DNA of 64,000 nt from Glycomyces buryatensis (lineage in GTDB: Bacteria > Actinomycetota > Actinomycetes > Mycobacteriales > Micromonosporaceae). The DNA lies in the NCBI RefSeq assembly GCF_004912275.1, contig NZ_STGY01000025.1:124001-188000 (forward strand). Direction: 5' to 3'. Under the pieces are notes generated by a model. The model made no database searches. It was not told the DNA's origin and saw only the letters and a program-made list of their open reading frames with translations. The position numbers and the translations under genes were made by a program. Every line of letters begins with the position of its first letter. Within the stretch, counting starts at the first letter, position 1. This document shows positions 25,189 through 59,876 of this stretch, one piece after another.

Positions 25189-26598
25189 CTAGCCCCGGAG
25201 CGTCAGCGCAAAGGTGTACAGGCCGCAGATCCAACCGACCAGCGGCAGGATCGCCACGATCAGGAGCGCCTCGCAGATGTCGAGCGAGCGGCCCCACGTC
25301 GGGGCGATCTTCTTGCCGGCCACGGCCAGGCCGTAGACCATCGCGATCACCGTGAGCAGCACCAGCGAGCCGAGGATCGCCGCGAGCTGGACGACCATCG
25401 AGTTGGTGCCGATGAAGATCGCCGTCAGCACCAGGGCCAGGCTGCCCATGCCCGAGGCCAGCATGACGATGCGGGCCGGGCGGTCCTCGACGGTGCGGGA
25501 GCGGCTGAGCATGATCAGGCCGACGATGGTGGCCAGGAGGACGCCGGGCAGGGTGCCCGAGAAGGCCAGGGCGATCGAGGAGACCAGGCCGACCACGGCG
25601 GCGAAGGAGTACAGGGCCTCCAGGTAGTTGCCGGCGTGCTCGGAGAGCTTGAGGATCCGCTTGCCGTCGATGGCCTCCGTGTCGCCCTCTTTGAGCTCCT
25701 CGGTGGTCGTCGGCAGGGTCGGGGTGGGGACCATCGCCATCGTCAGCGCCAGTCGCGGCGCCGAGGGCAGGATCGTCATGGCCAGCGGGGCGGCCAGGGC
25801 GGCGCCCGCCGCGGCGGTTCCACTCTCCTGCAAGGCCATCATGAAGCCCACGGCGATGCCGAGGACGACCGCGCCGAGGATGGTCACGATGAACACCGGT
25901 GCCGAGGCCATATCGCCGACGGCGACCATCGACAACACACTGAACAGCAGGACCGCACTGGCGGCGATCATGACGTGCGGTGCGGCCAGATCCCACAGGC
26001 TCTCGTCGCCGGCGGCGATGAGCAGCCCGCCGACCCCGCTGTAAATGACGGCGACGACGCCGAAGTAGGTGGCCGCGCGGGAGTCGCCGACGGCCCGCGA
26101 CAGCAGCGCCGAGGCGCCGACGAGGACCGCGGCCACGCCGAGGGCGACGATCGCACCGGGCAGGTGGTTCGGCCCGGTGAACAGGATCGCGATGGCGCCC
26201 GCCGCCAGGGCCGCGGTGCCGACGCCGATGCTGAAGCGCTTCGTGGCCACGTGGTCCCAGCGATTGCCGCGGGAGTCGGTGGCGGTGGCGACCGCGTCGA
26301 TGATGTCGTCGAAGACGACCTCGGGCTTGGCCGCGTCGGCCGGGTTGAGGTACAACATCTCGCCGTCGGTGATCGACAGCTGGGAGCAGGAATGCCCGAT
26401 GTCCACGGCGTCCTCGCCGAGGCGGGACAGGATCCAACCGCCGTTGTCGCCTGCCTCGTCGATGTAGTACTCACCGGCCTGATGCAGGATCGTAGGCAGC
26501 AGGTCCGACAGGGGGACATCTGAGGGCAATGCGAGGTCGATCCTGGTGCGAGGACTGACGATCGTCACCCTGCTTAGGGTGGCCGACTTGGTGCTCAC
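25189..26598 (-). CDS. eccD: ESX type VII secretion integral membrane protein EccD
   Basis: A 469-residue protein. Residues 1-90 form the ubiquitin-like (YukD) cytosolic domain (TIVSPRTRIDLALPSDVPLS). About eleven membrane helices follow from residue 125 onward. In ESX systems EccD dimers form the membrane scaffold of the pore. The GTG start at 26598 has GGAGG eight bases upstream; a longer in-frame ATG exists at 26637. The gene is divergent from eccC and leads the eccD-eccB operon. Confidence 0.95.
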   Translation of the reverse strand: MSTKSATLSRVTIVSPRTRIDLALPSDVPLSDLLPTILHQAGEYYIDEAGDNGGWILSRLGEDAVDIGHSCSQLSITDGEMLYLNPADAAKPEVVFDDIIDAVATATDSRGNRWDHVATKRFSIGVGTAALAAGAIAILFTGPNHLPGAIVALGVAAVLVGASALLSRAVGDSRAATYFGVVAVIYSGVGGLLIAAGDESLWDLAAPHVMIAASAVLLFSVLSMVAVGDMASAPVFIVTILGAVVLGIAVGFMMALQESGTAAAGAALAAPLAMTILPSAPRLALTMAMVPTPTLPTTTEELKEGDTEAIDGKRILKLSEHAGNYLEALYSFAAVVGLVSSIALAFSGTLPGVLLATIVGLIMLSRSRTVEDRPARIVMLASGMGSLALVLTAIFIGTNSMVVQLAAILGSLVLLTVIAMVYGLAVAGKKIAPTWGRSLDICEALLIVAILPLVGWICGLYTFALTLRG

Positions 26599-26773
26599 CG
26601 CACGAACCTCCGGGTCGGGTTGAAAATCGGGGGACATACACAGGATAAACGCATTGCGCCAACGACCGAGTACCGCATGAGTGGCGATGCGGCTCTACCC
26701 TGTTAAGTGCGATACTCGTACAGAGCGCGCTTCGTTCGGCAGGGCGCATCCCCGGTGAGTACAAGGACCCAGT

Positions 26774-29700
26774 GTGACGACCAAACTCTTCCGCAGGCCG
26801 CCGCGTAAACGCGGTCCGCAGGCGCCGCGTGGCGACATCTTGCTCGAGTCGCCGCCCGACATGCCCGACCCGCAGCCCAAGAACATCGCCCAGTATCTGA
26901 TGATATTGCCGATGCTCGCGGGCGCTGCTGCCATGGCGCTCATGATGATGAGCCGCTCCGGCATGGGCGGCGGTGGCGGTGGCGGCAACAACACGCTGCG
27001 CATCGCCATGGGCGCGATGATGGGCATCTCGATGGTCGGCATGATGGCCACGAGCATGACCTCGAACCGCGGCCAGAAGAAGGCCGAGTTCAACGCGGAC
27101 CGGCGCGACTACATGCGCTACCTCAACCAGGTGCGGCGCCGCGCCCGCAAGGGCGCCGAGCGGCAGTGGCGGGCGGCGCGCTGGCGCCACCCCGACCCGA
27201 AGGCGCTGTGGTCGCTGGTGGGTTCGCGGCGCATGTGGGAGCGCCGTGCCAAGGACGATGACGCCCTGGACATCAGGGTGGGCATCGGCAAGCAGCGCAT
27301 GACGATGAAACTGGTGCCTCCCGAGACGAAACCGGTCGAGGACCTGGAGCCGATGACGTCGATGGCGCTGCGAAGATTCGTTGCCGCCCATTCGAACGTG
27401 ATCGACATCCCACGTTCAATGAGCTATACCGAGGCCGGGCGCGTGGTCCTGCGCGGCGACCGGCAGATCGTCATGGAGAACCTCCGGGCGCAGCTGTGTC
27501 AGCTGGCGGTCCTGCACTCGCCCGACGATGTGCTCATTGCGGTTGTCGCCGACCAGGAGCGGATGCCCGACTGGCACTGGGCCAAGTGGCTGCCGCACCT
27601 CCAGCACCCCAGCGACGAGGACGGCGCCGGGCCGGTCCGCATGTTCTACAACTCGACCGGGAAGCTCGAAGCCGCCCTGCGCGATCAGCTGTCCAGCCGT
27701 GGCGGCTGGTCGCCGGGAGCGACCTCCGGTGACGGCGAGAAGCACCTGGTGATCATTCTCGACGGCGGCGAGGTCGACCCGACGGGCATCGTCGCGGCCG
27801 ATGGCATGGCCGGCGTCACCGTCTTCGACTTCTCCGGTTACCTGCCCCGCAAGCCCGGGGCGCACATCAAGCTGTTCGACGTCGCCGTCGAGGAGGTCCG
27901 CACCGAGCAGGCCGGGCGCCGCCGCGTGCTGGGCAAGCCGGACCGCCTCTCTACCAACGAGGCCGAGGGCGTCGCCCGCAGCCTGAGCCCGTGGAGGCTG
28001 ACGCTCAAGGGCGCCGGCGGCTCCACCGAATCCGGCGACGAGGACGCCTCGCCGATGTCGAACCCGTCGGGTCTTCCCGAGATGCTGGGATTCAACGACG
28101 CCGCCGCGATGGACCCGGCGGTGCACTGGCGCGAGAAGCCCATCAAGGACTACCTGAAGGTGCCGATCGGGCCCGGCCCGGACGGTGCGCTCGTCGACAT
28201 CGACTTCAAGGAGGCGGCGGTCGGCGGGATGGGCCCGCACGGCCTGCTCATCGGCGCGACCGGTTCCGGTAAGTCCGAGGTGCTCCGCACCATGGTCGGT
28301 GCCCTGATCGCCACGCACTCTTCCGAAGAGCTCAACTTCATCCTCGTCGACTTCAAGGGTGGCGCCACGTTCGCGGCCCTGGACGACCTGCCGCACGTCT
28401 CGGCGGTCATCACCAACCTCGCCGACGAGATCGAGCTGGTCGACCGCATGCAGGACGCCCTCGAGGGCGAACTGGTTCGGCGCCAGGAAGAACTGCGCAA
28501 GGCGGGCAACTTCACCAACCGGTGGGAGTACGAGAAGGCCCGCCTCGCGGGCCAGCCGCTCGACCCGATGCCGACCCTGATGATCATCTCGGACGAGTTC
28601 TCCGAAATGCTCGTCGCCAAGCCCGAGTTCATCAACCTGTTCCTGCAGATCGGCCGCATCGGCCGTTCGATCGGCGTGCACATGCTGCTCGCCTCGCAGC
28701 GACTGGAAGAGGGCAAGCTCAAGGGCCTGGACACGTTCCTGTCCTACCGGGTCGCGCTGCGCACGTTCTCCGCGCAGGAGTCGCGCACCGTGATCGGTTC
28801 CGGTGCGGCCTACGAGCTTCCGCAGGCGCCCGGCCACGGTTACCTCCAGGTCGGCACCGAGGAACTGGTGCGCTTCCGTGCCGCCTACGTCGGTGGCACC
28901 TACAAGCCGCCGAAGAAGGTCGCCTCCCGCGCCGAGCGGATCGCCGCGGTGTCGCAGAAGGTGCAGCGGTTCCTGCCCGGCTTCGTCGAGCTCCCGCCCG
29001 AGCCGGAGCCCGAGGAGGAGCCGGAAGAGGAGATCGAGGAAGAGGAAGAGGAGGAGAGCAAGCTCTCCGTCCTCGAGGTCATCGTCCAGAACTGCATCGG
29101 CATGGGCCGCCCGGCCCACGAGGTGTGGCTGCCGCCGCTGCTCGACCCGCCGACGCTCGACCAGCTGTTCCCGCCGCTGGAGGCCGACCCGGTTCGCGGC
29201 CTGACGCCGAAGAACTTCGCGCTCAACGGAAAGCTCCACGCCGTCCTCGGCGAGGAGGACCGCCCGTTCGAGCAGACCCGGTCCCCGTTCATCGTGGACC
29301 TGTCGGGCGCCCAGGGCACGGTCGCCATCGCCGGCGGTGCCGTCTCCGGTAAGTCGACGATGCTGCGTTCGCTCATCGGATCGCTGGCGCTGACGCACAC
29401 GCCTCGGGAAGTCCAGTTCTACTGCCTCGACTTCGGTGGCGGTTCTCTGCGCGGCATCGAGGAGCTGCCCCACGTGGCCGGCGTCTTCGGCCGCCAGGAG
29501 GAAGAGGGCGTGCGGCGCACGATCCAGGAGGTCTCGACCATCCTGGACGAGCGCGAGGCGTTCTTCACCGCCAACAAGATCGACGGCATGGGCACCTACC
29601 GCCGCATGAAGGCCGACGGCAGGTACCAAGAGGACCCGTACGGCGACGTCTTCCTCGTCATCGACAACTGGATGACGCTGCGGGAGGACTTCGAGCCGTT

Positions 29701-30808
29701 CGTGGACTCCATCCGCGCCATCGGTAACCGCGGTCTGTCCTACGGCGTGCACGTCATGGTCACCTGCACCCGCTGGGGCGACATCCGCATGAACATGCGC
29801 GACATGTTCGGCCTGAAGCTGGAGCTCAAGCTCTCGGACAATATGGAATCCGAGATCGACCGGAAGGCCGCGGCGAACGTGCCGAAGGGCCGCCCGGGCC
29901 GGGGCCTGTCGCTCCAGAAGCTGCACTTCCTCTCGGGTGTGCCGCGCATCGACGGCATTCGTGACGGCGACGACTTGCAGCCGGGCGTGGAGGACTTCGT
30001 CAAGAAGGTCAAGCAGGCCTGGCGCGCCGCGCCTTGCCCGCCCGTGCGACTGCTGCCGCGCGAGCTGCACGTCGAAGGGTTCCTGCAGGCCGTCGACCGC
30101 TCCAAGCCGGGCATTCCGATCGGCCTCAACGAGGCCGGCCTCAAGCCCGTCTACCTGGACTTCCAGACGGAGCCGCACCTATTGGTGTTCGGCGACTCGG
30201 AGTGCGGAAAGACGAACCTGCTGCGGCACATCGCCCGTCAGATCCAGGCGACGTACACGGACAAGGAAGCCAAGGTCATCATGGCCGACTACCGGCGCGG
30301 CATGCTGGAGGAGATCTCCAAGCCGACGCTGTTGGACTACGCCATGTCGGGCAAGCAGTTCGAGAACTCGATCAAGAACCTCAAGGGCCCGATCGAACGG
30401 CGAATGCCCGGCGACGACGTGACGCCGCAGGCGCTGCGCGACCGCTCCTGGTGGACCGGCCCGGACCTGTACCTGATCGTGGACGACTACGAGATGGTCG
30501 GGACCAGGCAGAACCCCATGGCGCCCATCGCAGAGCTGATCCCGCAGGGCCGCGACATCGGCTTCCACGTGATCGTCGCCCGACGTGCGACCGGCGCCAG
30601 CAGGTCCATGATGGACCCGATCGTGGGCCAGATTAAGCAGCTCGAATCGCCGGGCCTGCTCATGAGCGGACGCAAGGAGGAGGGCGCGATCTTCGGCAAG
30701 CTCCGCCCGAGCCCGCAACCCGCCGGCCGCGGCACCCTGGTGCGCCGCAAGGACGGCGAACAGCTCATCCAGACGACCCTGCTGCCGCCCAACGGCAGCG
30801 GTCAATAA
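26774..30808 (+). CDS. eccC: ESX type VII secretion ATPase EccC
   Basis: A 1344-residue motor that recruits and drives ESX substrates. Two membrane helices lie at about residues 42-60 and 72-92. Three FtsK/SpoIIIE-type ATPase domains follow: Walker A GATGSGKS at 494-501, GGAVSGKS at 854-861 and GDSECGKTN at 1140-1148. ATPase 1 has a full Walker B (LMIISDEF). ATPase 2 (VFLVIDNW) and ATPase 3 (YLIVDDYE) lack the catalytic Glu, as in known EccC proteins where they act as regulatory and substrate-binding domains. An unusual run rich in Glu joins ATPase 1 to ATPase 2 at about 740-765. EccCa and EccCb are fused. The start is a GTG. Confidence 0.97.
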   Translation: MTTKLFRRPPRKRGPQAPRGDILLESPPDMPDPQPKNIAQYLMILPMLAGAAAMALMMMSRSGMGGGGGGGNNTLRIAMGAMMGISMVGMMATSMTSNRGQKKAEFNADRRDYMRYLNQVRRRARKGAERQWRAARWRHPDPKALWSLVGSRRMWERRAKDDDALDIRVGIGKQRMTMKLVPPETKPVEDLEPMTSMALRRFVAAHSNVIDIPRSMSYTEAGRVVLRGDRQIVMENLRAQLCQLAVLHSPDDVLIAVVADQERMPDWHWAKWLPHLQHPSDEDGAGPVRMFYNSTGKLEAALRDQLSSRGGWSPGATSGDGEKHLVIILDGGEVDPTGIVAADGMAGVTVFDFSGYLPRKPGAHIKLFDVAVEEVRTEQAGRRRVLGKPDRLSTNEAEGVARSLSPWRLTLKGAGGSTESGDEDASPMSNPSGLPEMLGFNDAAAMDPAVHWREKPIKDYLKVPIGPGPDGALVDIDFKEAAVGGMGPHGLLIGATGSGKSEVLRTMVGALIATHSSEELNFILVDFKGGATFAALDDLPHVSAVITNLADEIELVDRMQDALEGELVRRQEELRKAGNFTNRWEYEKARLAGQPLDPMPTLMIISDEFSEMLVAKPEFINLFLQIGRIGRSIGVHMLLASQRLEEGKLKGLDTFLSYRVALRTFSAQESRTVIGSGAAYELPQAPGHGYLQVGTEELVRFRAAYVGGTYKPPKKVASRAERIAAVSQKVQRFLPGFVELPPEPEPEEEPEEEIEEEEEEESKLSVLEVIVQNCIGMGRPAHEVWLPPLLDPPTLDQLFPPLEADPVRGLTPKNFALNGKLHAVLGEEDRPFEQTRSPFIVDLSGAQGTVAIAGGAVSGKSTMLRSLIGSLALTHTPREVQFYCLDFGGGSLRGIEELPHVAGVFGRQEEEGVRRTIQEVSTILDEREAFFTANKIDGMGTYRRMKADGRYQEDPYGDVFLVIDNWMTLREDFEPFVDSIRAIGNRGLSYGVHVMVTCTRWGDIRMNMRDMFGLKLELKLSDNMESEIDRKAAANVPKGRPGRGLSLQKLHFLSGVPRIDGIRDGDDLQPGVEDFVKKVKQAWRAAPCPPVRLLPRELHVEGFLQAVDRSKPGIPIGLNEAGLKPVYLDFQTEPHLLVFGDSECGKTNLLRHIARQIQATYTDKEAKVIMADYRRGMLEEISKPTLLDYAMSGKQFENSIKNLKGPIERRMPGDDVTPQALRDRSWWTGPDLYLIVDDYEMVGTRQNPMAPIAELIPQGRDIGFHVIVARRATGASRSMMDPIVGQIKQLESPGLLMSGRKEEGAIFGKLRPSPQPAGRGTLVRRKDGEQLIQTTLLPPNGSGQ

Positions 30809-31588: not shown

Positions 31589-32839
31589 CTACGCCGCGAT
31601 CGAGCAGACGCTGTTGAAGTCGAAGCCGCCGTCCCAATCCTCGGCATCCTCATCGGTGGCGCTCTCGACCTGGCCGTTCTCCCATGGGGCAATGAGATAG
31701 CGGCCCTCCTCGTCGTACTCGACCCAGAACCGGCTGACGTCGATATCGCATTCGAGCACCGCGGTATCGTCGGTCTCCTCAGAGGTCAGCGTGACCGCCG
31801 CCAGCCCCGGCGTGCGGTTGACGATGTGGAGGTCAGAGGTGGCGTTCACCATTTCCTCGGTCGTGCCCACGCTCACCTCGGGATAGGTCAGGACCTCCCA
31901 GGACCGCTCATCGTGGATCGAGAACTGATCGGGGAGATCGCTGATCTCCGACCAGCCGAGCCCGAACGGGCAGCCGTAGCCGACCGATCCGTCCTCCGCG
32001 GCCAGACAGTCATCGAGGAAGGTGTGAACGCGGGCGTTCAGGTCCTCCTCGTTCACTCCGGAGACCGTGAAGCCCCCGATGTCGGAGAGTTGCAACCCAT
32101 AGCCCATGGCCTCGGCAACCGCCAACTTCTCGGCGGTGACCTCGTCAATCTCGCCGTCTACGACGAACTTGTCCCCGAGCGAGAGCAGCGCGGGCACTTC
32201 GAATTCGAGGCCTTCGGGGGCATCGGCGTAGAACTCGTACAGGCCGGGGAGCACATCGAATTCCACCGACTCGGAGGTGAACATGTCCTCCGACTCGTCA
32301 GCCGCGTTCTCCAGCGGCGCAACGAACCCGTTCACTTCGAAGTACGGGACCGGCTGACTTGAGACGGTGAGCGTCCCGAACGGGTGCGACAGCTTCCATT
32401 CGCCGTCGACGCGGTCCAGCTCGAACTGCTCGGTCGCGCTCGCGCCGGCGGGCCCGGTGATGGTCGCCCGCACCACGGCCGAGTCGTACTGGAAGCTCGG
32501 ATTCTCGGCCTCCTCGAAGACCTCCAGCTCGAGCTCGCCGATCTCCCAGTCGGCGCTGGCGGCCTCGGCGGTGAGGAGGTCGTCGCGGTTCTCATTCTGG
32601 CCAGCGGCCAAGGCCCGCGCGGTCTCGACGTCGCCGCTGCGAGAGGCCTCCAGGAACTCCCGCACCGTCTCCACCGGTTCATGCGCGATGGTGCGGGACT
32701 GAAACCACCCGCGGGTGAACCCGGCCGCGGCAGCCAGGAGCAGCAACGCGAGCACCGTCGCGGCGATGACTCGCGCCCGGGAGGGCCGGTAGTCAAGAGC
32801 CGGTTCATCGTGGTTCTCTTGTGATGCTGGGGATGGCAT
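31589..32839 (-). CDS. Class A membrane-anchored extracytoplasmic protein, copy 1
   Basis: A 416-residue protein with a short cytosolic N-terminus, one membrane helix at about 24-45 and a large extracytoplasmic part. The first extracytoplasmic segment (HEPVETVREFLEASRSGDVE) looks like a DUF4878/NTF2-like domain. A PGLYEFYADAPEG segment follows, then a region with DDCLAAEDG and GCPFGL, and a C-terminal domain ending in a cysteine-containing tail. It is clearly paralogous to the gene at 36879 (EPVETVRAFLEASRDGNVDT, DDCLSAEDG, GCPFGL). A likely -10 TAGAAT stands at 32878-32883 on the minus strand, and GAGGAT precedes the ATG. Divergent from a class C gene. Function unknown. Confidence 0.75.
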   Translation of the reverse strand: MPSPASQENHDEPALDYRPSRARVIAATVLALLLLAAAAGFTRGWFQSRTIAHEPVETVREFLEASRSGDVETARALAAGQNENRDDLLTAEAASADWEIGELELEVFEEAENPSFQYDSAVVRATITGPAGASATEQFELDRVDGEWKLSHPFGTLTVSSQPVPYFEVNGFVAPLENAADESEDMFTSESVEFDVLPGLYEFYADAPEGLEFEVPALLSLGDKFVVDGEIDEVTAEKLAVAEAMGYGLQLSDIGGFTVSGVNEEDLNARVHTFLDDCLAAEDGSVGYGCPFGLGWSEISDLPDQFSIHDERSWEVLTYPEVSVGTTEEMVNATSDLHIVNRTPGLAAVTLTSEETDDTAVLECDIDVSRFWVEYDEEGRYLIAPWENGQVESATDEDAEDWDGGFDFNSVCSIAA

Positions 32840-32923
32840 GGGGATCCTCGGGGGTCACGGAGGGTGGGGCGAGGGCCATTCTATGTGGTCTCGGCGAGGC
32901 CTGTGGTCCTCGCGGGAACCGGT

Positions 32924-32929
32924 TATCTT
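32924..32929 (+). promoter_or_regulatory. Candidate -10 element, leaderless class C gene
   Basis: TATCTT lies seven bases before the ATG at 32937, which has no ribosome binding site. The mirror-image paralog has TATCAT at nearly the same distance. Confidence 0.45.
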
Positions 32930-32936
32930 GGGACTC

Positions 32937-33809
32937 ATGCACCCTCGCCTGCGATCTTTCGCTCACACCGTCGACCGTGTCCTGGAACGCGTGCCTTACC
33001 CGGTAACGGTCCTTGCCTGGATTTTCGTGGTGCTCGCCCTGATCGTCGGGTCCTCCTGGCAGCCTGACCCAGCAGTGTTCGCGAATCCGACCCCGGCCGA
33101 GTCCACTGAGTCGCCTGCGGCGGAAGAGGAACCGGTGCAACCGAACACCGATCCGGTGCAGCTGGACGAGGACGAGATCGGGCTCGGTGTGGGCATGGGC
33201 AACTCGGGGTTCACGATCTTGCAGGACGATTTCCGCCAGGGCGCCGATGTGAGCTGGGGTGTGCTGCTGGCCAATGACCACCCCGACTATGTTGCCCTGG
33301 TTTCCGTGGCACTGACGGTCGAAGCCGAGAACGGTGACTTCGCGGTACCGCGCGTGCTCTCCGTGGCGCTGGAACCGGGCGGGACCAGCTGGGCAGGTGA
33401 CTCCGGCGAGACCTACCTGGAGGACGAGTCGGTGTTCGACGCCGCCGAGCCGGTGCGGGCCGTGGACGCGACCCTCGAGGTGGACGAGATCACCTGGTAC
33501 GAACCGGAAGGCGTGACGGGTTGGGAGGTCTCCGACGCGGATTTGCAGGTGACCGAGTTCGAGGACGAACCGCGTGGCGGAGAGCAGTTGCTGACGGTCA
33601 CGGTGGAGAACGACAGCGGGCTGGCCGTGAGCCTCGGCAATCCCACGATCGTCTACCGGGATGAGGAAGGCAATATTCTCGGGGCCGAGAGTGGTCTCCA
33701 CAGTCTGGGTTGGATGCCGACCGGTTCGGCGACGAGAACCCTGCGGGTCGACGCCGAACGAATCCCGCCCGGAACCGATCTCACCCTGACGGCCTTCGGC
33801 ACCGGCTGA
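32937..33809 (+). CDS. Class C membrane-anchored protein with two FxLYD-like domains, copy 1
   Basis: A 290-residue protein. Residues 1-20 are cytosolic and basic, one helix lies at about 22-42, and a Pro/Glu-rich linker follows. Two beta-sandwich-like repeats come next: the first around VSWGVLLANDHPDYVALVSV, the second around LLTVTVENDSGLAVSLGNPT. Both end with a GxxxT-type turn before a final strand, as in FxLYD domains. It is paralogous to the gene at 35966. The ATG at 32937 fits a leaderless transcript; an upstream in-frame extension is coding-poor. It is divergent from class A copy 1 and convergent with class B2 copy a. Confidence 0.7.
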   Translation: MHPRLRSFAHTVDRVLERVPYPVTVLAWIFVVLALIVGSSWQPDPAVFANPTPAESTESPAAEEEPVQPNTDPVQLDEDEIGLGVGMGNSGFTILQDDFRQGADVSWGVLLANDHPDYVALVSVALTVEAENGDFAVPRVLSVALEPGGTSWAGDSGETYLEDESVFDAAEPVRAVDATLEVDEITWYEPEGVTGWEVSDADLQVTEFEDEPRGGEQLLTVTVENDSGLAVSLGNPTIVYRDEEGNILGAESGLHSLGWMPTGSATRTLRVDAERIPPGTDLTLTAFGTG

Positions 33810-33850
33810 CCGGTCATCGAAATCCGTTGCGAGAACACGCTAGAGGCGAA

Positions 33851-34816
33851 CTACTCGAACTCGTCGGTGCCTGCCGAAAGACAGTCGGAGAAGCTGCCTT
33901 CCGCGAACCCGCGAAACTCGAAGGTGCCATCCGGCGTGAGAACCGGAGTCACGTGCCCCGGATCGAGTTCGCAACTGGCATGGAACGCGACCGGCTCTGA
34001 TTCGCCATCCGGAATGCCTTCGGCGTCAAGGTTGAGCGTGACCCCGGTGTAGCCCAGGCTGAACTCGTTTCGGTTCACCGCCAGGGCGACCGCCCCCGTC
34101 GCGCCGATCGACCAGACATGGCTCGTGACCTCGTCGTACTGCTTCAGGTCAACGAACACTGTGTCCCGGTCGAAGCGCGTGAAGCTCAGGCACTCTGCGG
34201 ACTCGTCCCCCTCGGGTACACACCCTTCTAGGTAGGCGTCGAAGTCGGCCAGAACCTGAGCCTCGACCTCCTCGAGCGACGCGGCCAGAGCTTCCCGGTA
34301 CACCGCTTCCAGGTCGACGGTTCCTCCCGGTTGCACGACGACCGTGGCCGGTTCGATGAAGGGGGCGAACTCGAATCGGTAGACGCCGGCCGGAACGTAG
34401 AGGCCGCCGTCACCTTCCTCATCCACCAGCTCGGAAAAGTCGACGCTCTCGCCATTGACGGTCGCCGCCGAGAACAACTCGGAGGACACGCCGGCGAGAT
34501 CGCCGCCCATGACACCTACATCATCGTCTGGTTGGTGGAACGCGATCTCATACTCGGCCCCGCCGGATTGGACGGTCGCGACCACGGTGCGCCGGCCGCG
34601 CTGTTCGACGTCGAGGAGTTCCCAGTCGCCCAATGGCAGGGGCGATTCGTTCTGGGACTCGAAGTATTCGGTGACAGCCTGTTCTTGCTGGGTCGGTTCG
34701 GGCTCGAGTTCCAGGGCGAACAGGAACGATGTGGCGGCGAGGGCGATCACCATCGCCTCGGCTCCCAGCGAGAAGCGCCGTCCGATGCTCAAAGTCTTCA
34801 TTTTCATCGGGTTCAT
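33851..34816 (-). CDS. Class B2 membrane-anchored protein, copy a
   Basis: A 321-residue protein with one N-terminal helix at about 16-36 and an extracytoplasmic domain. Landmarks are ESPLPLGDWELLDVEQRGRR, the YVPAGVYRFEFAPFIEP block, a helical stretch, and a C-terminal domain with paired cysteines. It is paralogous to the gene at 39480 (YLRPGVYAVEFAPFIES). Its ATG overlaps the stop of the upstream B1 gene in ATGA, so the two are coupled. Last gene of a three-gene operon C2-B1a-B2a. Function unknown. Confidence 0.72.
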   Translation of the reverse strand: MNPMKMKTLSIGRRFSLGAEAMVIALAATSFLFALELEPEPTQQEQAVTEYFESQNESPLPLGDWELLDVEQRGRRTVVATVQSGGAEYEIAFHQPDDDVGVMGGDLAGVSSELFSAATVNGESVDFSELVDEEGDGGLYVPAGVYRFEFAPFIEPATVVVQPGGTVDLEAVYREALAASLEEVEAQVLADFDAYLEGCVPEGDESAECLSFTRFDRDTVFVDLKQYDEVTSHVWSIGATGAVALAVNRNEFSLGYTGVTLNLDAEGIPDGESEPVAFHASCELDPGHVTPVLTPDGTFEFRGFAEGSFSDCLSAGTDEFE

Positions 34817-35964
34817 GGGAGTACCTCGCAGCCCTCGTGGATTGTGGGGCCAGAGATTCCGTTCGGGTGGCTCACCTCTGGGGCCTCGGCATGCACAACG
34901 GGGTACGCGATCAGGTCCGGGAAATCGCAGGCCAGGTGAAACGCGTGCCGATACTTCTCACCTTCAGGCTCGTCTCGGTAGAAGGCGTGGCCGGAAACCT
35001 CCATCCGGAGGGGTGCGATTGAGTTGGCGACGAGAACCCCGTTGGCGTCGACTTCGAGGCGCCATTCCGGGTACTCGATGACCGTCCATTCCACGTCGAA
35101 CGGGTCCCACAGGCCCATCATGAACAGATCGAGTTCGAGCTGGTCAATACCGAACGGGCAGCTGTCCCAGGCTGAGGCGGTGCCCACAATTGGTTCCGGG
35201 ACCGATTGCGTCGCACAGTCTTCGATGACATTCGTGGCCGTATTGTGGGCCACTTCGGCGAAGTCGCCCGGATTGAGCGGAGGCGTCGCTGTCGCATCCG
35301 CAGGCGGATCGTCCCCGGGGAAGAGTGCGACCCGCCCGGCCTCGGCACCGAAGTCGTAGACACCCGGCAGCACGGTCAACTCGACCGTGCTGCCAGTGAT
35401 TGCGAGGCCGTTGACTTGCACGAAGTCGCGCGAGACACCGGCCTCAAGGATGAACATGTTGGTGGCAGGGTCCATGATGTACGGACCGTTCGCCCCTTCT
35501 CTAACAGTGAACTGGCCGGTCTCGGTCTGGCCGTCGAAGTCGAGGTCGACGTCCACGGTCGCCTCAGCTGTCACGCCCATCGGCAGTTCGGCAGCCTCAC
35601 TGGTCCCGACAGTCTCGACGCGGCCGACGGACCAGTCCTCGCCGATCACCTCGGGGTCAAGGTACTCCGGGTGACTGGGGTCCGGGACGTAATCGGTCAG
35701 TGCGAGTGCCGACTGGATGTCCTTGTCCTGCAGTGCTTCAAAGTAGGAGGTCACCGTCTCCTCCGCGATCCGCGAGAAGTCGCTCTCGTACTGGTGACGC
35801 CAGATGAACGCGGTGCAGGTCAGCACCAGCGAGACGACGACGACCCACACCGTCACCCGGAATTCGCGCCTGGCGCGATCGGGTCCGGACTTCGGGGCTG
35901 TCGGCGGCTTCGAGGTCGGGTCAGCCATAGGGGTATGGGACACGCTTCCGTCGTTGATTTCCAT
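34813..35964 (-). CDS. Class B1 membrane-anchored protein, copy a
   Basis: A 383-residue protein. Residues 1-35 are polar and cytosolic, one helix lies at about 37-56, and the extracytoplasmic part follows. The first domain (VTSYFEALQDKDIQSALALT) is a DUF4878/NTF2-like segment, followed by VLPGVYDFGAEAGR and a C-terminal domain with DSCPFGIDQLEL and HAFHLACD. It is paralogous to the gene at 40514 (FFDALQAKDIDAALALTD, LLPGVYDFGSEAAGR). Its ATG lies one base after the stop of the class C gene and its stop overlaps B2a, giving a tight operon. Confidence 0.72.
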   Translation of the reverse strand: MEINDGSVSHTPMADPTSKPPTAPKSGPDRARREFRVTVWVVVVSLVLTCTAFIWRHQYESDFSRIAEETVTSYFEALQDKDIQSALALTDYVPDPSHPEYLDPEVIGEDWSVGRVETVGTSEAAELPMGVTAEATVDVDLDFDGQTETGQFTVREGANGPYIMDPATNMFILEAGVSRDFVQVNGLAITGSTVELTVLPGVYDFGAEAGRVALFPGDDPPADATATPPLNPGDFAEVAHNTATNVIEDCATQSVPEPIVGTASAWDSCPFGIDQLELDLFMMGLWDPFDVEWTVIEYPEWRLEVDANGVLVANSIAPLRMEVSGHAFYRDEPEGEKYRHAFHLACDFPDLIAYPVVHAEAPEVSHPNGISGPTIHEGCEVLP

Positions 35965-35965
35965 T

Positions 35966-36793
35966 TCAGATCGCCAAGATCATGGTGTTCTCGAAGTCGG
36001 CGCCCGCGGGCGGTTCGGAGAACCGGGGAATCTCCAACACGCGAGTGGAGGTGCCGGGCGGCAGCACATCGCCCATCGAGCCGCTCGCCTCAGCGCCGCC
36101 GAGGAGCGCGCCGTCCGCGTCGTAGAACAGGGCGAAATAGTCGACCTCGTACGCGTAGGCCGCGACGTTGTCGACCGTGAGGTGGAAGGTCACCGTGGAA
36201 CGGTCGGAGGCGATCTCGATCTCTTCGACCAGGAATCCGATGGCGGTCCGAGCCTGGAGTGGTTCGGCGTTTTTGGTCTCGAACCACGCGAGCTCGGTGA
36301 TCGATACGGTCACCTCGGTCACGTCAGGGAGGCCATAGATCGACATGGCGTTGCCGAACGTGACCGACTCGCCCGACCGCAGCGGGGACTCGAGCGTGAA
36401 CACCTCGAACTCCTCCGTCTCGGTCTCGTCTCCGCCGACCGCCGTCACCTCGATGACGAAGGTCGCGGCATATTCGGTGTGCGGGTTGGAGAAAGAGGCC
36501 GCCCAACTGACGTACTCGCCGTCTTCTGAAGCGCGGAACACGATGTCGGCGACGCTGATCTCCGCGCCCACCTCCGCATCCTCGACCAACTGATACTCGC
36601 TGACGACATACGGCGGGTCATTGGCCTCCTCATAGTGTTGTTGATCAACGAAGCTGTCCTGCTTCGGAGTCCAGCCGAGGACCATGAGGAAGATGAGGAC
36701 GACCAAGACCGCCCCCACGACGAGCACCCGGTCTGGCAATCGGGAGAAGACTCGGGCGGGATTAAGGTGGCGAGGGATTCGGGGCAGCCGCAC
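35966..36793 (-). CDS. Class C membrane-anchored protein with two FxLYD-like domains, copy 2
   Basis: A 275-residue paralog of the gene at 32937, with one helix at about 22-42 and two beta-sandwich-like repeats (YVSWAASFSNPHTEYAATFV and VTFHLTVDNVAAYAYEVDYF). The GTG at 36793 was chosen because TATCAT stands six bases before it, as in the leaderless copy 1; an ATG nine codons upstream overlaps that element. It leads the operon with B1a and B2a and is divergent from class A copy 2. Function unknown. Confidence 0.7.
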   Translation of the reverse strand: MRLPRIPRHLNPARVFSRLPDRVLVVGAVLVVLIFLMVLGWTPKQDSFVDQQHYEEANDPPYVVSEYQLVEDAEVGAEISVADIVFRASEDGEYVSWAASFSNPHTEYAATFVIEVTAVGGDETETEEFEVFTLESPLRSGESVTFGNAMSIYGLPDVTEVTVSITELAWFETKNAEPLQARTAIGFLVEEIEIASDRSTVTFHLTVDNVAAYAYEVDYFALFYDADGALLGGAEASGSMGDVLPPGTSTRVLEIPRFSEPPAGADFENTMILAI

Positions 36794-36799
36794 CGGTCC

Positions 36800-36805
36800 A
36801 TGATA
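36800..36805 (-). promoter_or_regulatory. Candidate -10 element, leaderless class C copy 2
   Basis: On the minus strand TATCAT is followed by six bases and then the GTG start, with no ribosome binding site. Confidence 0.42.
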
Positions 36806-36878
36806 GGAGCACGACACCACCGAATGGAAACATCGTTGTACGGTGAGTGCCGAATGCCCCTGAGCCCCTGGGAAAGTA

Positions 36879-38042
36879 ATGGTCGCCCGCAGAATTCAAC
36901 CGCAGGAACGCCGCCGCCGACACTGGCCCGACGCGCCCCTGCGCTCCAGCACCCGTCGCATCCTCGCCCTGGTCATCGCGCTCGCTTTGACGGCCGGCGT
37001 CGCAGTTGTCGTCGGACGGTGGACGACCGCCCGCGGGTACGCGGATGAACCGGTCGAAACGGTGCGTGCGTTCTTGGAGGCCTCCCGGGACGGCAATGTG
37101 GACACCGCGCTGGCAATCGCGCTGGACGAGCCGACGGGTCGCACCGACTTCATTGCCCCGGACGCGATCAGCGGCGACTGGGAGATCACCGAGCTCGGCC
37201 TCCATGTCTGGTCACCGGACTCCGGCTCAGCGGTGGTTCTGGCGACGATCACAGGTCCGGAGGCGACGGCCGTGACCGAAGCGTACGAATTGGATCGCGT
37301 CGACGGTGCATGGCGCATCGAGAACGCGTTCGCCGAGCTGGAAATCTCGCAGCCATTGCTCCCTTACTTCGAGCTGAACGGCCACTCGGTGCCGGTGGAA
37401 CCGGATGCCGGCGTCCTCTCCTTCTCGTTCCTGCCCGGGGTCTATCAGCCCTACCGAGAGACGTCGCCGGACATATTGGAATCTCACAGCCCACCGGTGA
37501 TCGTCTTGGGCGACACGGTGTTCAAACACCCCAACGATGAGACTCCAATGTGGGGTGATCAGTTCTTCAACTTCGCGATCACGATTGGGGCCGAAGACGC
37601 GGTGAACGAGCGCCTCGCCGCATACCTGGACGACTGCCTCTCAGCCGAAGACGGGCCCGAACGATTCGGCTGTCCCTTCGGCCTCCCGGACCACCGGGTC
37701 AATGACCATTTCGGGGGCGAGGGCGACGACTTCGAGAAGTCCTGGGAGATAACCACATATCCGCGGGCTGCCGTCACCAGCCTGAGCGGCGTCATCACCT
37801 CCCCCGAAGAGATGATCTTCGCGACGAGGGAGCCCGGGACCGCCAGGCTCACCGCGACTGATGCGGACACCGGTGAGGAGGCCGTGATCGACTGCGATAT
37901 CCCGCTGGCGGCCCTGTACCCGTACTTCGGCGCGGACGGCGGCTTCGGGATCGGCCCGAACGAGGACCCGGAGGGAGAGTCGAGCGGCAAGGCGAGCTGG
38001 TGGAGTTCCGACTTCGACTCCGGCTGCGAGGGCGCCGAGTGA
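36879..38042 (+). CDS. Class A membrane-anchored extracytoplasmic protein, copy 2
   Basis: A 387-residue paralog of the gene at 31589, with a basic cytosolic N-terminus, one helix at about 29-47, then the same domain order. The motif sets EPVETVRAFLEASRDGNV, GDWEITELGLHVW, VVLATITGPEATAVTEAYEL, LPYFELNG, DDCLSAEDG and GCPFGL match copy 1 almost position for position. GGGAAAG precedes the ATG. The stop overlaps the GTG of the following gene. It is divergent from class C copy 2, the mirror image of the A1/C1 arrangement. Confidence 0.75.
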   Translation: MVARRIQPQERRRRHWPDAPLRSSTRRILALVIALALTAGVAVVVGRWTTARGYADEPVETVRAFLEASRDGNVDTALAIALDEPTGRTDFIAPDAISGDWEITELGLHVWSPDSGSAVVLATITGPEATAVTEAYELDRVDGAWRIENAFAELEISQPLLPYFELNGHSVPVEPDAGVLSFSFLPGVYQPYRETSPDILESHSPPVIVLGDTVFKHPNDETPMWGDQFFNFAITIGAEDAVNERLAAYLDDCLSAEDGPERFGCPFGLPDHRVNDHFGGEGDDFEKSWEITTYPRAAVTSLSGVITSPEEMIFATREPGTARLTATDADTGEEAVIDCDIPLAALYPYFGADGGFGIGPNEDPEGESSGKASWWSSDFDSGCEGAE

Positions 38043-39166
38043 GCATCGATCCGTATGTCGAGTTCCAAGCCGACGAACCCGTTCCGGATGAGTTGATCCC
38101 GGTCCGTTTCCGCCGCAGTTGGGTGGTGATCCTCCTGGTGGTCATGGCCGTGCTCGTTGCGGCCTTCTCCTTCATCCTCGTGAAAGATTTCGAGTGGCTG
38201 GCCTTGGGGCCGTTCACGTCATGCGTCGGTGTATTCCTGCTCTTCAGCAGGTGGTTGCGGCACCCGTGGACCTACTACGATCCGCGCTCCAACAGCCTGG
38301 TCAACCCGACCATCTTCGGCATCTTCGACCACCGGACCCGCTTGCCGCGCACACCGGACCGGGGACGCTTGATCACCAGTGGCGATCGCATCCTGCTGGA
38401 GCTGCCGAGCGGAAAACGCCGCTCGCCAATGCGGCAGATGTTCACCGATGACGACGACTTCCTCGCGGTGCATTGGGCCATCCAGGAGCGCCACGATTCA
38501 GTGGTCGAGCCGGGACCCCCACTGCCGGCTCCCAAGCTGGGCAAGGGAACCAGCATCATCCTGGTCACGGTGCTGGTGGTCATGCTCGTGGGCCCGCTGA
38601 CCGGCTTGTCAATACAACTCGTGTCCGACCGAGAAGAAGACCGCATGACGGACCTGGCCGCGTCCGTGTCGCTCGACCTGTGCGACAGGGAACGCTGGGA
38701 AACGGCGCTCGCGCCGTTCGAGGAGGCGGAGCTGAACAGAACCGAATCCGACCCCAGGCCATGGCCGTCCGCCAGCTGCGATCTCGAAGTCACGATGGAT
38801 TTGCCCTCGGGCGAGCGCCTCGAGGAGATGGGGGTGTCGTTCGAGGTCGATCTGGCGGACGACCCGAATCGCTGGACCGAATACACCTGCGACGAGGTCG
38901 AACCCATTACCTGGCGTTCGTTCGCGGACCGATTCGAGGCGCTGGACGCCGGTGCGCCGCAACCGCTCTGTATGGGATCCGGCATCGCCGACCTCGAAGT
39001 CATGGAAGCCGGATTCGTCAAGGGAGCGTGGATTGTCACGGCCCGGATCAACTACGGCGCGAGCAACAGTGACCCAACCCAGGAAGATATTGAACGGATC
39101 GAGGAGCTGTTCCTCGAAGCGATCGTCCCCTCGATAGACCAGTACCCGTTCGAGCTCATCGACTGA
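38039..39166 (+). CDS. Unknown three-TM protein, coupled to class A copy 2
   Basis: A 375-residue protein. Two close helices lie at about 30-50 and 57-73. A cytosolic stretch of about 90 residues follows (RLPRTPDRGRLITSGDRILL), then a third helix at about 165-187 and an extracytoplasmic C-terminal domain of about 185 residues with three cysteines (SLDLCDRERWE, SASCDLEV, YTCDEVEP). The GTG start overlaps the stop of the class A gene in GTGA. No counterpart follows class A copy 1. The extracytoplasmic part resembles DUF3558-type actinobacterial domains only loosely. Confidence 0.65.
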   Translation: MSIDPYVEFQADEPVPDELIPVRFRRSWVVILLVVMAVLVAAFSFILVKDFEWLALGPFTSCVGVFLLFSRWLRHPWTYYDPRSNSLVNPTIFGIFDHRTRLPRTPDRGRLITSGDRILLELPSGKRRSPMRQMFTDDDDFLAVHWAIQERHDSVVEPGPPLPAPKLGKGTSIILVTVLVVMLVGPLTGLSIQLVSDREEDRMTDLAASVSLDLCDRERWETALAPFEEAELNRTESDPRPWPSASCDLEVTMDLPSGERLEEMGVSFEVDLADDPNRWTEYTCDEVEPITWRSFADRFEALDAGAPQPLCMGSGIADLEVMEAGFVKGAWIVTARINYGASNSDPTQEDIERIEELFLEAIVPSIDQYPFELID

Positions 39167-39215
39167 GCGCTGTCCTGCAAGCTTGATGTCGCACCTCGAT
39201 GGCAATATCGCGAGC

Positions 39216-39479
39216 ATGACCGACACCAAGGCACGGCTGCACCGCGATCTCCGCAACGCCCGCGAAAGCCTGCTGTGGAAACTCGACGGCCTGGGCGAAT
39301 ACGATCTGCGCCGTCCCATGACTCCGACCGGAACCAACCTCCTCGGCCTGGTCAAGCGCATCAGCGGCACCGCCGGACTGCGTCCCGACTTCAACGGCCT
39401 GCCCGAAGGCGACGAGGGCTGGTGGTCCGACTACCGCGACCGCCTCGAACAAGCCGCCGACAAGGCCGCCGGGCAATAG
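39216..39479 (+). pseudogene. DinB/DUF664-family protein with a large internal deletion
   Basis: An 87-residue ORF. Its N-terminus (RESLLWKLDGLGEYDLRRPM, then TPTGTNLLGLVKR) is the first helix region of the mycothiol-dependent DUF664/DinB fold. The sequence then jumps directly to GTAGLRPDFNGLPEGDEGWW and a final helix typical of the C-terminus of the same family. About 85-90 central residues, including the expected metal-binding histidines, are missing while the frame is kept. The family is normally about 170 residues long. It is probably a non-functional remnant. Its stop abuts the stop of the convergent B2b gene with no gap. Confidence 0.65.
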
Positions 39480-40517
39480 TCAGGTGCGACCCATGCCGTC
39501 GCAGGATTCCGCATGGCCGGGATCGGGGAATGCGATGGTGTCGCTTCCGTTGATCACCGCAGTGGTGGCACGGAAATCGGTGACGAGGAGACACCGACTC
39601 CTGACGGTCGTGGACCGCCCTTCGTTATCCTCGCCGGTCGCGGTGAGTTGCAGCTCCGCGCCGTAGAACCCGAACTGGGCGGTGGCCCCGGCATATTGCA
39701 GGACCTCGATGACCTCGGGCGGCACGACCGTCCACTCGTGGCCCTCCAGATTGTCGTACCCGTCGTCGTCGATAGTGACCTCCTCGAGGACGGGATCCGG
39801 CAGGCCGGTGCAGTCGGCGTCGGATTCGCCGGAGTAGCAGTTCTCCAGCAGCGCAGTGAGATCGGCGGCGATCTGTTCCTGGAGGGCAGCGGAATCGGCC
39901 GCGGCGGCGTCGGCGAAGAGCTGGTTCAGATTGAGATTGTCCCAGGGGCCGAGGGCCACCGTCACGCTTTCGATGAAGGGCGCGAACTCGACGGCGTAGA
40001 CCCCGGGGCGGAGGTAGATGGTGCCCTGCGAGCCCACAGATTCGGCCTCAGGCAGGTCGATCTCGGTGCCGTTGAACTTGACCGGGCCGGTGAAATCTCC
40101 GGGGGAGTAGTTGACGGGAACCACAGGGACCCAGAGCAGGAGCTCGTCGCCTTCAGTGTCGACGCGGAAGGAGAAGAGGTGCTCTTCCTCGCCGTGCCTG
40201 ATTGTTGCCTGGACCACGCTGCTGTCGCGGGTGCGTTGGGTGACCTCGCCGATTTCCCAGTCCCCGCTAGGCGGGGCCTCTTCGTGTATCGGAATTTCGG
40301 AGGATGCAACGGTCAGGGCGTCGGCGGCGTCGAAATCTCCACCGCGAAGGGCCTCAAGGTATTCGGTGACCAGCTCGACCTTCTCGGTATCGACTTCGAC
40401 GATGTCGGAAGAAGCGAGCTGGAGCAGGCTGAGGCCCCCGAATCCGAGAGCGATCGCCACCGTCACCGCGATGTCCGCGGCGAGCAATTTGCGCCCCGGT
40501 CCAGTCAATATCCTCAT
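39480..40517 (-). CDS. Class B2 membrane-anchored protein, copy b
   Basis: A 345-residue paralog of the gene at 33851, with one helix at about 14-34, a first domain with VTEYLEALRGGDFDAADALT and PSGDWEIGEV, the YLRPGVYAVEFAPFIES block and a cysteine-containing C-terminal part. The ATG at 40517 was chosen because it overlaps the B1b stop in ATGA, exactly as in the copy-a pair; an in-frame ATG five codons upstream also exists. It keeps an N-terminal DUF4878-like segment that copy a has largely lost. Confidence 0.72.
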   Translation of the reverse strand: MRILTGPGRKLLAADIAVTVAIALGFGGLSLLQLASSDIVEVDTEKVELVTEYLEALRGGDFDAADALTVASSEIPIHEEAPPSGDWEIGEVTQRTRDSSVVQATIRHGEEEHLFSFRVDTEGDELLLWVPVVPVNYSPGDFTGPVKFNGTEIDLPEAESVGSQGTIYLRPGVYAVEFAPFIESVTVALGPWDNLNLNQLFADAAAADSAALQEQIAADLTALLENCYSGESDADCTGLPDPVLEEVTIDDDGYDNLEGHEWTVVPPEVIEVLQYAGATAQFGFYGAELQLTATGEDNEGRSTTVRSRCLLVTDFRATTAVINGSDTIAFPDPGHAESCDGMGRT

Positions 40518-41575
40518 TGGATGAACTCGCATTCGGAGTCGTAACCTGGGGCGAGGCCCGGGAAGTACCCTTCCCCGTCCGCGTCGATCGCCATATCGAA
40601 ATAGCCGGTGTTGATCTCGCAGCGGAGATGGAATGCCTGCCGCTCACCGGTTTCGCCGGAGTCGGCCCGGTAGAAGGCCGAACCGGACACCTCCACGCTC
40701 CCCGCCTCGACCGTGTTCACGGTGAAAAAGTAGACGCCATCATCGGTGCTGACCTGCGGATACTCCACGATCTCCCAGTCGAGGTCGGTCACATCATGCA
40801 GATTCGGCAGGTCATCCTCAAAGTATTCGAGGCCCGCGGGGCATCCGCGAGGTACCGGGAAGGCCCACTCCGCGCAGCGATCGAGGTCGGCCTCCACTAG
40901 ACGCTGAGCGGCATCGGTGTACTCGGACGGATCGGGAAGGTTGACAGTCTCGCCCGCTGAGAGCTCGGTGTCGGGAAACACCGCATGGCGTCCGGCCGCC
41001 TCGGATCCGAAGTCGTAGACCCCGGGAAGCAGGAAGATCGAGTCGAACTCGGTGGGCTCGACGGCCTCGCCATTGACGGTGATCCAATCGAAAGCGCGCT
41101 CGCTCTCGACTCGAGTCTCGTTGAGCGGCATCTTGATATGCGGAACGTCATCCGTCTTTCCGACCTCCATCACCCCTGAGTCGGACTCCCCGTCGAACTC
41201 GAGGATCACCGTCACGTCGGCGCCGGAACTGGATTCGGTGCCGGCGGCGGCGATGGTCGTGACCTGCCAGTCGTCCGCGATGATCTCGGGCCGCAGGAAC
41301 TCAAGGTGCTGGTCGGTCAGATCCAGATCGGTCAAGGCCAAGGCGGCATCGATGTCCTTGGCCTGGAGCGCATCGAAGAACTCCCCGACGATCTCCGAGG
41401 CCTCATCGTTGGTGAGCGGGGGATCCGAGCTGGCCGGACCGGTCAGGACGACGAGGCTGAAGATGACCGAGATGAACACAATCGAGGTGACAATGTGGAC
41501 CTCGCGGTCGGCCTTGCCCTGGGGCTTCGGGGGTTTGTAGGGGGGAGGGGGCGGGGGATCGTGCAGTGTGACCAC
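40514..41575 (-). CDS. Class B1 membrane-anchored protein, copy b
   Basis: A 353-residue paralog of the gene at 34813. It has a Pro-rich cytosolic N-terminus, one helix at about 28-48, then VGEFFDALQAKDIDAALALT, LLPGVYDFGSEAAGR, VPRGCPAGLEYFED and QAFHLRCEINTG. The GTG start lies seven bases after a TACACT -10 element, so it is probably leaderless. It heads the two-gene B1b-B2b operon. Unlike copy a, no class C gene precedes it. Confidence 0.72.
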   Translation of the reverse strand: MVTLHDPPPPPPYKPPKPQGKADREVHIVTSIVFISVIFSLVVLTGPASSDPPLTNDEASEIVGEFFDALQAKDIDAALALTDLDLTDQHLEFLRPEIIADDWQVTTIAAAGTESSSGADVTVILEFDGESDSGVMEVGKTDDVPHIKMPLNETRVESERAFDWITVNGEAVEPTEFDSIFLLPGVYDFGSEAAGRHAVFPDTELSAGETVNLPDPSEYTDAAQRLVEADLDRCAEWAFPVPRGCPAGLEYFEDDLPNLHDVTDLDWEIVEYPQVSTDDGVYFFTVNTVEAGSVEVSGSAFYRADSGETGERQAFHLRCEINTGYFDMAIDADGEGYFPGLAPGYDSECEFIQ

Positions 41576-42327: not shown

Positions 42328-43527
42328 ATGAATAGCCCCCACCCCGGCCGGAACCGACCGGTCGAACCGCGTGACGCACAGAGCGCGTCGCGGCACCACG
42401 CCATACAGCGCGGCGACGGCACGATCGATTGGAGCCGTGGCGAACGCATCAGTCCGAAATGGCGCATGGGCGCCGTGCTCCTCGGGGCGCTGCTATTGCT
42501 CGGGGGTTCGGTGCAGCCCAGTACATTCGTGCCGACCGACGAGGTCTTCGCCAGCACCGATCCAATTCCCTTCTCGCCCGAGGGTTCCGAGCACTTCTGC
42601 GCCACCGTAGGCGCCGACATGCCCTTTGAAGTCGATCCCTCGGTTGAGACGGTCGTGGACGACTGGTACGAGCCCTACGTGGTCGGTCTGGAGTGCTGGT
42701 TGGCAGTGGCGGATGAGGAAGGCGTCGATTTCGAGCTGGAGTTCTTTCAAGACCCGCAGGACTGGCGCGAGGACGTCGCGGACGCCTACGAGGACTTCAA
42801 GAGTTTCGCCGACGGATCGGATGCCTACGTTTCCGGGATCGATCTCGGGGACTTTGGCGACCAGGCGCTCCTGCTCCATTCCCAGTACGACGACGGCTCC
42901 GGCGGCTATCGACTCTTCACATCGGTCGGGAATGTCGCGATGGTGTTCTACGCGAGTTCCGCTTCGACGCAACGGGAACTCGACCTGACCCTCCATGCGG
43001 CAAACCTGGTGATGGCCGAGTTCGACCCCGACACCCAAGCTCGCCCCACCCTCCCCGAGACGCCGCGTCGCTCCGAGCTGCTTCCGGACCTGTGCGACTC
43101 AATGTCGTTGGAGGGCTGGGAACTCGCGGCGGACCAGGCGCCAGTGCAGGGCCGAACCGAAGACGACGGCGCCCGATGCGACTGGACTGGAACCGGATCG
43201 AACGATCTCACGACATTGACCGCGGACATCGAGCTCCTAAAGGCGGTCCCGATTCAGGAGCTCACCGACGAGGACGCCGCAATCTCCCGCTGGTACGAGC
43301 TGTGCGAGGTTCCCGGCAGGGAGTTCGTCAACGACCGCCTGGCGTTCCTGCATTACGACCGCTCGGTGAAGTACGGCTACTTCGAAGCGGAGATCTTCTG
43401 GTACTTCGAGAATATCGTCATGCGAATCGAAGTCGTCCAGCCGAACGACTCCGACGCCGAGCCGCAGGCCCAGGCCGTGGCTGTCTCCCAACTGGTGGCC
43501 AACGAACTGCGAGCGCACCTTGAATGA
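42328..43527 (+). CDS. Membrane-anchored protein with two DUF3558-like halves
   Basis: A 399-residue protein with a polar cytosolic N-terminus, one helix at about 48-64, and an extracytoplasmic part with two related halves. Each half begins with a cysteine-containing segment (SEHFCATVGADMP and LLPDLCDSMSLEGWEL) and continues to a second cysteine (LECWLAV and GARCDW), a pattern resembling DUF3558-type actinobacterial lipoproteins. AAAGG precedes the ATG. It follows the Pro-rich gene by 96 bases. Function unknown. Confidence 0.65.
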   Translation: MNSPHPGRNRPVEPRDAQSASRHHAIQRGDGTIDWSRGERISPKWRMGAVLLGALLLLGGSVQPSTFVPTDEVFASTDPIPFSPEGSEHFCATVGADMPFEVDPSVETVVDDWYEPYVVGLECWLAVADEEGVDFELEFFQDPQDWREDVADAYEDFKSFADGSDAYVSGIDLGDFGDQALLLHSQYDDGSGGYRLFTSVGNVAMVFYASSASTQRELDLTLHAANLVMAEFDPDTQARPTLPETPRRSELLPDLCDSMSLEGWELAADQAPVQGRTEDDGARCDWTGTGSNDLTTLTADIELLKAVPIQELTDEDAAISRWYELCEVPGREFVNDRLAFLHYDRSVKYGYFEAEIFWYFENIVMRIEVVQPNDSDAEPQAQAVAVSQLVANELRAHLE

Positions 43528-50199: not shown

Positions 50200-50220
50200 G
50201 GCCGACAGGAGGAGACGCTG

Positions 50221-52077: not shown

Positions 52078-52079
52078 CC

Positions 52080-59870: not shown

Positions 59871-59876
59871 GCACCC

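Follow-up and report, generated by a model that had tools for sequence, protein, structure and literature searches.

What are eight unnamed genes doing beside an ESX (type VII) secretion locus? The question is raised by a 64,000-nucleotide stretch of DNA from the soil actinomycete Glycomyces buryatensis (contig NZ_STGY01000025.1, positions 124,001 to 188,000; hereafter the window), part of a 5.8-Mb draft genome, in which a cluster of membrane-protein genes begins 0.8 kb past eccC. A reading made from the letters alone (below, the sequence-only reading) had taken the cluster for an undescribed, actively diversifying family of ESX-linked envelope proteins. We find that the genes stand beside ESX in this strain but that their counterparts in related genomes lie mostly away from it, which gives the appearance of an independent envelope family that evolves fast and is probably not part of the secretion machine. 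The full reading, which we consider reasonably likely as a whole, is that the cluster holds two copies each of two modules of a membrane-anchored envelope family, found mostly in Glycomyces, in a slot of the ESX locus whose cargo varies. The anatomy is near certain and the ligand is the weakest step. The family genes and the gaps of the two divergent pairs are as follows.

31589..32839, minus strand: A1, 416 residues; transmembrane helix, NTF2-like domain and four-cysteine ectodomain
32840..32936, intergenic: gap of the divergent pair A1/C1, from the sequence with the revised C1 start
32937..33809, plus strand: C1, 290 residues with the revised start (open reading frame opens at 32838); transmembrane helix and predicted immunoglobulin (Ig)-like ectodomain
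33851..34816, minus strand: B2a, 321 residues; second gene of a tandem B1-B2 pair and the most divergent member
34813..35964, minus strand: B1a, 383 residues; first gene of that pair
35966..36820, minus strand: C2, 284 residues; transmembrane helix and two predicted Ig-like domains
36821..36878, intergenic: gap of the divergent pair C2/A2, 58 bp; holds a TACGGT element
36879..38042, plus strand: A2, 387 residues; transmembrane helix, NTF2-like domain and four-cysteine ectodomain; modeled
39480..40532, minus strand: B2b, 350 residues; second gene of the second tandem pair
40514..41575, minus strand: B1b, 353 residues; first gene of the second tandem pair

The order is thus A1(-)/C1(+), B1a-B2a(-), C2(-)/A2(+), B1b-B2b(-), with an overlap of 4 nucleotides between the start of B2a and the end of B1a and of 19 nucleotides between B2b and B1b. 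The start of C1 is probably 32937, because an opening at 32838 overlaps A1. The sequence-only reading placed these genes correctly but counted seven rather than eight. It also proposed true duplication, and here the pairwise blastp comparisons agree: A1 and A2 share 37.3% identity over 394 residues (E 9e-71), B1a and B1b 32.4% over 321 (E 8e-43), B2a and B2b 28.0% over 325 (E 2e-21), and C1 and C2 24.4% over 275 (E 2e-6), and the motifs it had named are all present. The mirror image it saw between A1/C1 and C2/A2 is evident at the DNA level as well, where 294 bp inside the A genes align in inverted orientation (68% identity, E 1e-21). A and B are kin (A2/B1b, E 1e-9; A1/B2b, E 3e-6), and a profile built from 23 A proteins of other Glycomyces, of the type found at the glyS site described below, finds A2, A1, B1b, B1a and B2b (E 3e-51 to 1e-8), whereas its match to B2a has an E value of just 0.048. 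With a profile of C proteins taken from other genomes, C2 (E 7e-9) and C1 (E 1e-7) are both recovered. For both family profiles the best matches among the gene models of the window are these A/B and C proteins. The A, B1 and B2 proteins make up a single superfamily, with C as a separate second family, and the duplications, at 24-40% identity, are old.

To see how the family is distributed, we searched 61 genomes with a profile of 28 A/B proteins, which gave 89 places in 32 genomes; when the 12 places under 45 bits were dropped, 77 strong places (at least 45 bits) in 28 genomes were left. Most of these (64) belong to Glycomyces, where 21 of 22 genomes, that of the window included, have strong places and one (G001) has none. 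When weak and partial matches are counted too, the family is matched 13 times in the genome of the window (G000), more than in any other of the 22, among which the next highest number is 5. A single-protein search of the genome contigs with A2 found nothing.

The position of these places relative to ESX bears directly on an alternative, namely that the proteins are envelope components that help the ESX machine, for example in substrate recognition or passage through the wall. The start of the cluster so close to eccC, and an A/C pair occupying the slot that follows eccC in 4 of the 21 other Glycomyces, are what such components would lead one to expect. But only 10 of the 77 strong places lie within 20 kb of eccB (six in the window and one each in G005, G014, G016 and G017) and 11 within 25 kb, on distances to 37 eccB places that were entered by hand for the genomes with a strong A place; the other 67 are not within 20 kb. 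Each of the 22 Glycomyces genomes has one copy of eccB, yet in 17 of the 21 others the part of the ESX locus that was read contains no member of the family, although in three of these 17 (G007, G012 and G020) contig ends hide or truncate the region that follows eccC. Moreover, in a tree from which eleven duplicate rows had been removed, the ESX-linked A proteins form one clade (support 99/97) nested in a larger group (98/93) that also takes in copies from outside ESX, and the ESX position therefore probably reflects one insertion. Thus, a role as ESX components seems improbable, and the constant placement beside eccC expected by the sequence-only reading was not borne out, homologs being mostly far from any ESX locus, the outcome that this reading had itself named as refuting it. 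This corrects what was in effect a guilt-by-association reading of eight unnamed genes. Within the ESX-linked clade A1 branches before A2 and the four relatives (93/67, moderate support), which argues that the A1/A2 duplication is old. One further place, G032:C24, was considered as an ESX-locus member and rejected, as it is about 22 kb from eccB with about 20 gene models between, including homologs of the glyS-like gene and the dihydrouridine synthase gene described next. In that genome, from another genus of the taxonomic family (L090-L091), an ESX core, these homologs and an A/C pair share a stretch of about 35 kb, perhaps a sign of an old neighborhood.

Away from ESX the usual home of the A/C pair is beside a gene for a class II tRNA synthetase (glyS-like), with cobW, S14, L28 and dihydrouridine synthase genes close by; these names are inferred from matches at three scanned loci. 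We fetched 21 such loci through a neighboring TPR gene, independently of A or C; 20 are named Glycomyces and the other is a metagenome-assembled genome called Actinomycetes bacterium. The glyS-like gene is present in all 21 and A and C together in 20, the exception (L074) being a 7-kb contig. The genome of the window also carries this copy (L051), where a TnpB-like protein (Cas12f1-like TNB and OrfB_IS605 domains; L051:7234-8520) adjoins the A gene. Over the survey as a whole, C stands divergently beside A at 36 of 42 places, the remaining six all being outside Glycomyces, and A adjoins every C found in the Glycomyces genomes searched. Same-strand tandems account for 30 of the 77 A/B places, including B1-B2 pairs in G017 and at C84 of the window's own genome. 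On this arrangement the units are two modules, one of A with C as divergent genes and one of B1 with B2 as overlapping tandem genes. Both are cleanly defined and open to testing, in a genus that has been little studied.

The gap between A and C may itself be informative. At the glyS site, 19 of 24 A/C gaps at loci L069-L089 contain a conserved pair of facing TANNNT elements, mostly 10 bp apart (for example L075:15409-15468), which we read as -10 elements by their consensus. Five gaps lack it: that of L073 differs by one base, three belong to L079 pairs, and in L089 the chosen start leaves a longer gap. Shuffled gaps yield such a facing-element dyad in 0.08% of cases, in a control that ignores common descent. 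The exact form has 10 matches in the 22 genomes, once each in 10 genomes and every one in an A/C gap; this search, which allowed no mismatches and so misses variants, including those of the window's own genome, found no shared regulon. The TACGGT element of the C2/A2 gap recurs upstream of the ESX-linked A genes in L033, L042, L044 and L045. The dyad looks like a symmetric divergent promoter. In bidirectional promoters of such symmetry one polymerase excludes the other, according to one published study (PMC12825309).

We next consider how fast these proteins change. Simple pairwise Nei-Gojobori ratios of nonsynonymous to synonymous rates (dN/dS) were calculated for chosen genomes, with three pairs per set for A, C and EccC, ten more for glyS-site A and one for the TPR gene. 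Compared within one set of three genomes, EccC pairs show 98-99% identity and a dN/dS of 0.07-0.08, whereas ESX-side A pairs are 64-70% identical (dN/dS 0.36-0.60) and ESX-side C pairs 54-55% identical (0.52-0.59). The glyS-site copies behave similarly (A 0.44-0.49, C 0.38-0.52, the ten further A pairs 0.34-0.62), against 0.12 for the TPR control. By these measures A and C change far more quickly than neighboring ESX and housekeeping genes, and replacement changes are not in excess over the gene as a whole. Because dS is also higher in A and C (0.24-0.63, versus 0.10-0.14 in EccC and the TPR gene), recombination or codon selection may account for some of the difference. The description of the family as actively diversifying therefore holds for sequence change but not for recent copying, the duplications being old.

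What the proteins might do has to be approached from their predicted architecture. Each of the eight has a single transmembrane helix by hydropathy, in keeping with the single-span proteins with a large C-terminal domain that the sequence-only reading described. In A and B the helix is followed by an NTF2-like domain, a V-N-G...P-G-x-Y segment and four ectodomain cysteines, and in C by two predicted Ig-like domains. The kinship that the earlier reading drew between A and B survives in the NTF2-like segment and the shared P-G-x-Y motif but not in DUF4878 (which we take to be PF12870), for which there was no profile match at E 1 for the window proteins or at E 0.05 for the 28 members. Structure models, made from alignments that left out the A protein of L077 and the partial C proteins of L079, gave a mean predicted local distance difference test score (pLDDT) of 84.5 for A2, in which the domain after the transmembrane helix fits the NTF2-like fold superfamily. 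Foldseek found no match for A2 at E 0.001 or better, and the part past residue 217 was barely covered; for C2 there were 23 matches at this threshold, yet with low template modeling scores over the whole model. The C family profile found nothing useful among solved structures. TcaA was considered because of the V-N-G...P-G-x-Y segment and set aside, as Pfam gave no such match. Pfam and NCBIfam gave no Ecc, Esp, MycP, WXG100 or PE/PPE match for the eight proteins. The members have no Pfam family, a literature search joining Glycomyces with type VII secretion found no paper in the library searched, and a broader search had nothing relevant among the matches listed. On these searches the family is undescribed, as had been supposed, though not a startling one.

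A transmembrane helix with a short cytoplasmic tail could also belong to an anti-sigma or signaling protein, whose ectodomain senses wall damage and whose N-terminal tail signals inside. Seven of the 28 members weakly match NF052375 ("anti-sigma factor," best E 0.0022), a bi-domain fragment from the ectodomain of the anti-sigma factor RsgI9 tops the aligned chains, many glyS-type A proteins share a short N-terminal tail with an I-D-L-G motif, and in G032 a gene that by eye is sigma-factor-like (L090:14846-15766) lies about 4 kb from an A gene. However, the cytoplasmic tail has only about 15-60 residues, Pfam detects no anti-sigma domain, and no sigma factor was seen among the 20 neighboring proteins scanned at six loci, which are part of the neighbors. 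Signaling of this kind seems an improbable explanation.

In the window the ESX locus and the two genes of the cluster that lie outside the family are as follows.

23520-25160, minus strand: eccB, ESX core, context
25189-26637, minus strand: eccD, ESX core, context
26774-30808, plus strand: eccC, ESX core, context
38000-39166: non-family protein inside the cluster, 388 residues, about three transmembrane stretches by hydropathy
39183-39479: mycothiol-S-transferase fragment inside the cluster, 98 residues, matching only profile positions 2-41 of 149

The 388-residue protein shows a weak 44-residue match (38.6%, E 0.001) to a 399-residue protein at 42328-43527, possibly a further small paralog set. 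In relatives, the stretch from eccC and its following gene to a subtilase gene is a slot with varying contents: it may be empty or hold an Abhydrolase_8 gene with a small partner, an A/C pair, or other genes. A/C occupies it in four relatives, Abhydrolase_8 in five, and both in none; the window holds both. Its eccC-to-WXG100 stretch (30809-62567) is about 32 kb long, versus about 8 kb in L033, and is a hot spot for varied cargo. There a second duplicated module (49849-52802 and 59496-62308) consists of a small protein of 116 or 124 residues, an Abhydrolase_8 protein of 618 or 600, and a protein of 240 or 230 that belongs to one cluster in both copies, the first being lipoprotein-like. This Abhydrolase_8 module is probably ESX cargo. 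In the slot of G017, a 523-residue protein with a C-terminal EspC-like domain (PF10824, E 2.6e-5; L045:11036-12607) accompanies the A/C pair, and at C84 of the window's own genome an AbiEii-like nucleotidyl transferase (L052:10371-11036) lies one gene from the B1-B2 pair.

These neighbors, namely the two Abhydrolase_8 modules 8-21 kb downstream in the window, the EspC-domain protein and the AbiEii-like gene, together with the fast protein change and the strings of immunity paralogues that firmicutes keep (PMC9484751), could suggest immunity proteins against type VII effectors, in paralog arrays like those of firmicute type VIIb systems, as the sequence-only reading allowed. This is very unlikely, because none of the four relatives with A/C in the slot has Abhydrolase_8 and none of the five with Abhydrolase_8 has A/C, the glyS-site pair is present in 20 of 21 loci, unlike optional immunity genes, the ten neighbors scanned at three glyS loci matched housekeeping or transposase families and no toxin family, and PADLOC gave no match for an immunity or anti-phage role.

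Thus, we return to the free-standing envelope family. The paralogy, the module structure, the companionship of C with A in Glycomyces, the promoter-like gap and the dispersal away from ESX are read from the genomes themselves. Beyond these, the folds and the membrane topology are predicted; A and C are most likely produced together as membrane-spanning proteins and joined in a complex on the outer face; by analogy with some cell-wall enzymes, the NTF2-like domain may hold on to a wall polymer or to some other ligand in the envelope; B1 and B2 may form an analogous pair; and A, B and C would be neither parts nor substrates of the ESX machine. Several observations weigh against this account. Six C places, of which G025 has four and G022 and G028 one apiece, have no adjacent A, and 12 of the 77 A/B places have neither C nor a tandem partner, although four of the 12 prove to have C, which leaves eight single. 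The A and C trees, compared by eye, disagree in detail: L053, which is not at ESX, groups with the ESX-type C proteins (82/81) yet is placed outside ESX-type A. A long-branch warning attaches to C1 and L056 in the C tree. The ESX-slot copy occurs in five species (our own and four others), a possible link to ESX. The NTF2-like fold is common to many unrelated functions, such as the CaMKII hub and isomerases, and the A–C contact, the topology and the ligand are predicted. A bolder proposal, which we think unlikely, is that A/C and B1/B2 are two forms of an undescribed actinobacterial envelope system made of a receptor-like protein pair. One symmetric promoter would drive both genes of the pair, their fast-changing ectodomains would face something outside the cell that itself changes, for instance a phage, an effector from a competitor or a signal between kin, and the system would have been copied into the ESX slot.

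Known systems offer partial parallels. The T7SSb immunity arrays (EsaG, TsaI) similarly place several divergent paralogues beside a type VII locus; here, in contrast, the genes are mostly off ESX, have no consistently linked toxin, and come in fixed two-gene modules. The Rv0361 family (NF051431) is closer in sequence: residues 21-149 of A1, comprising the transmembrane helix and the NTF2-like part, match positions 2-137 of its 140 (E 6e-7), and seven of the 28 members match at E 0.05 or better, but A1 (29.7 bits) and A2 (15.9 bits) are below the curated cut-off of 37 and so do not belong to it, and A adds about 260 residues with the P-G-x-Y segment and four cysteines. Rv0361 itself has been detected both among membrane proteins and at the cell surface, according to one study (PMC2891697). 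Relative to a comparator of the transpeptidase type, A has no transpeptidase domain and its remainder differs. Finally, A may be likened, by its NTF2-like domain, to the LD-carboxypeptidase Pgp2 of Campylobacter, in which the NTF2 domain, a non-catalytic part of this cell-wall enzyme, binds peptidoglycan (PMC8038945).

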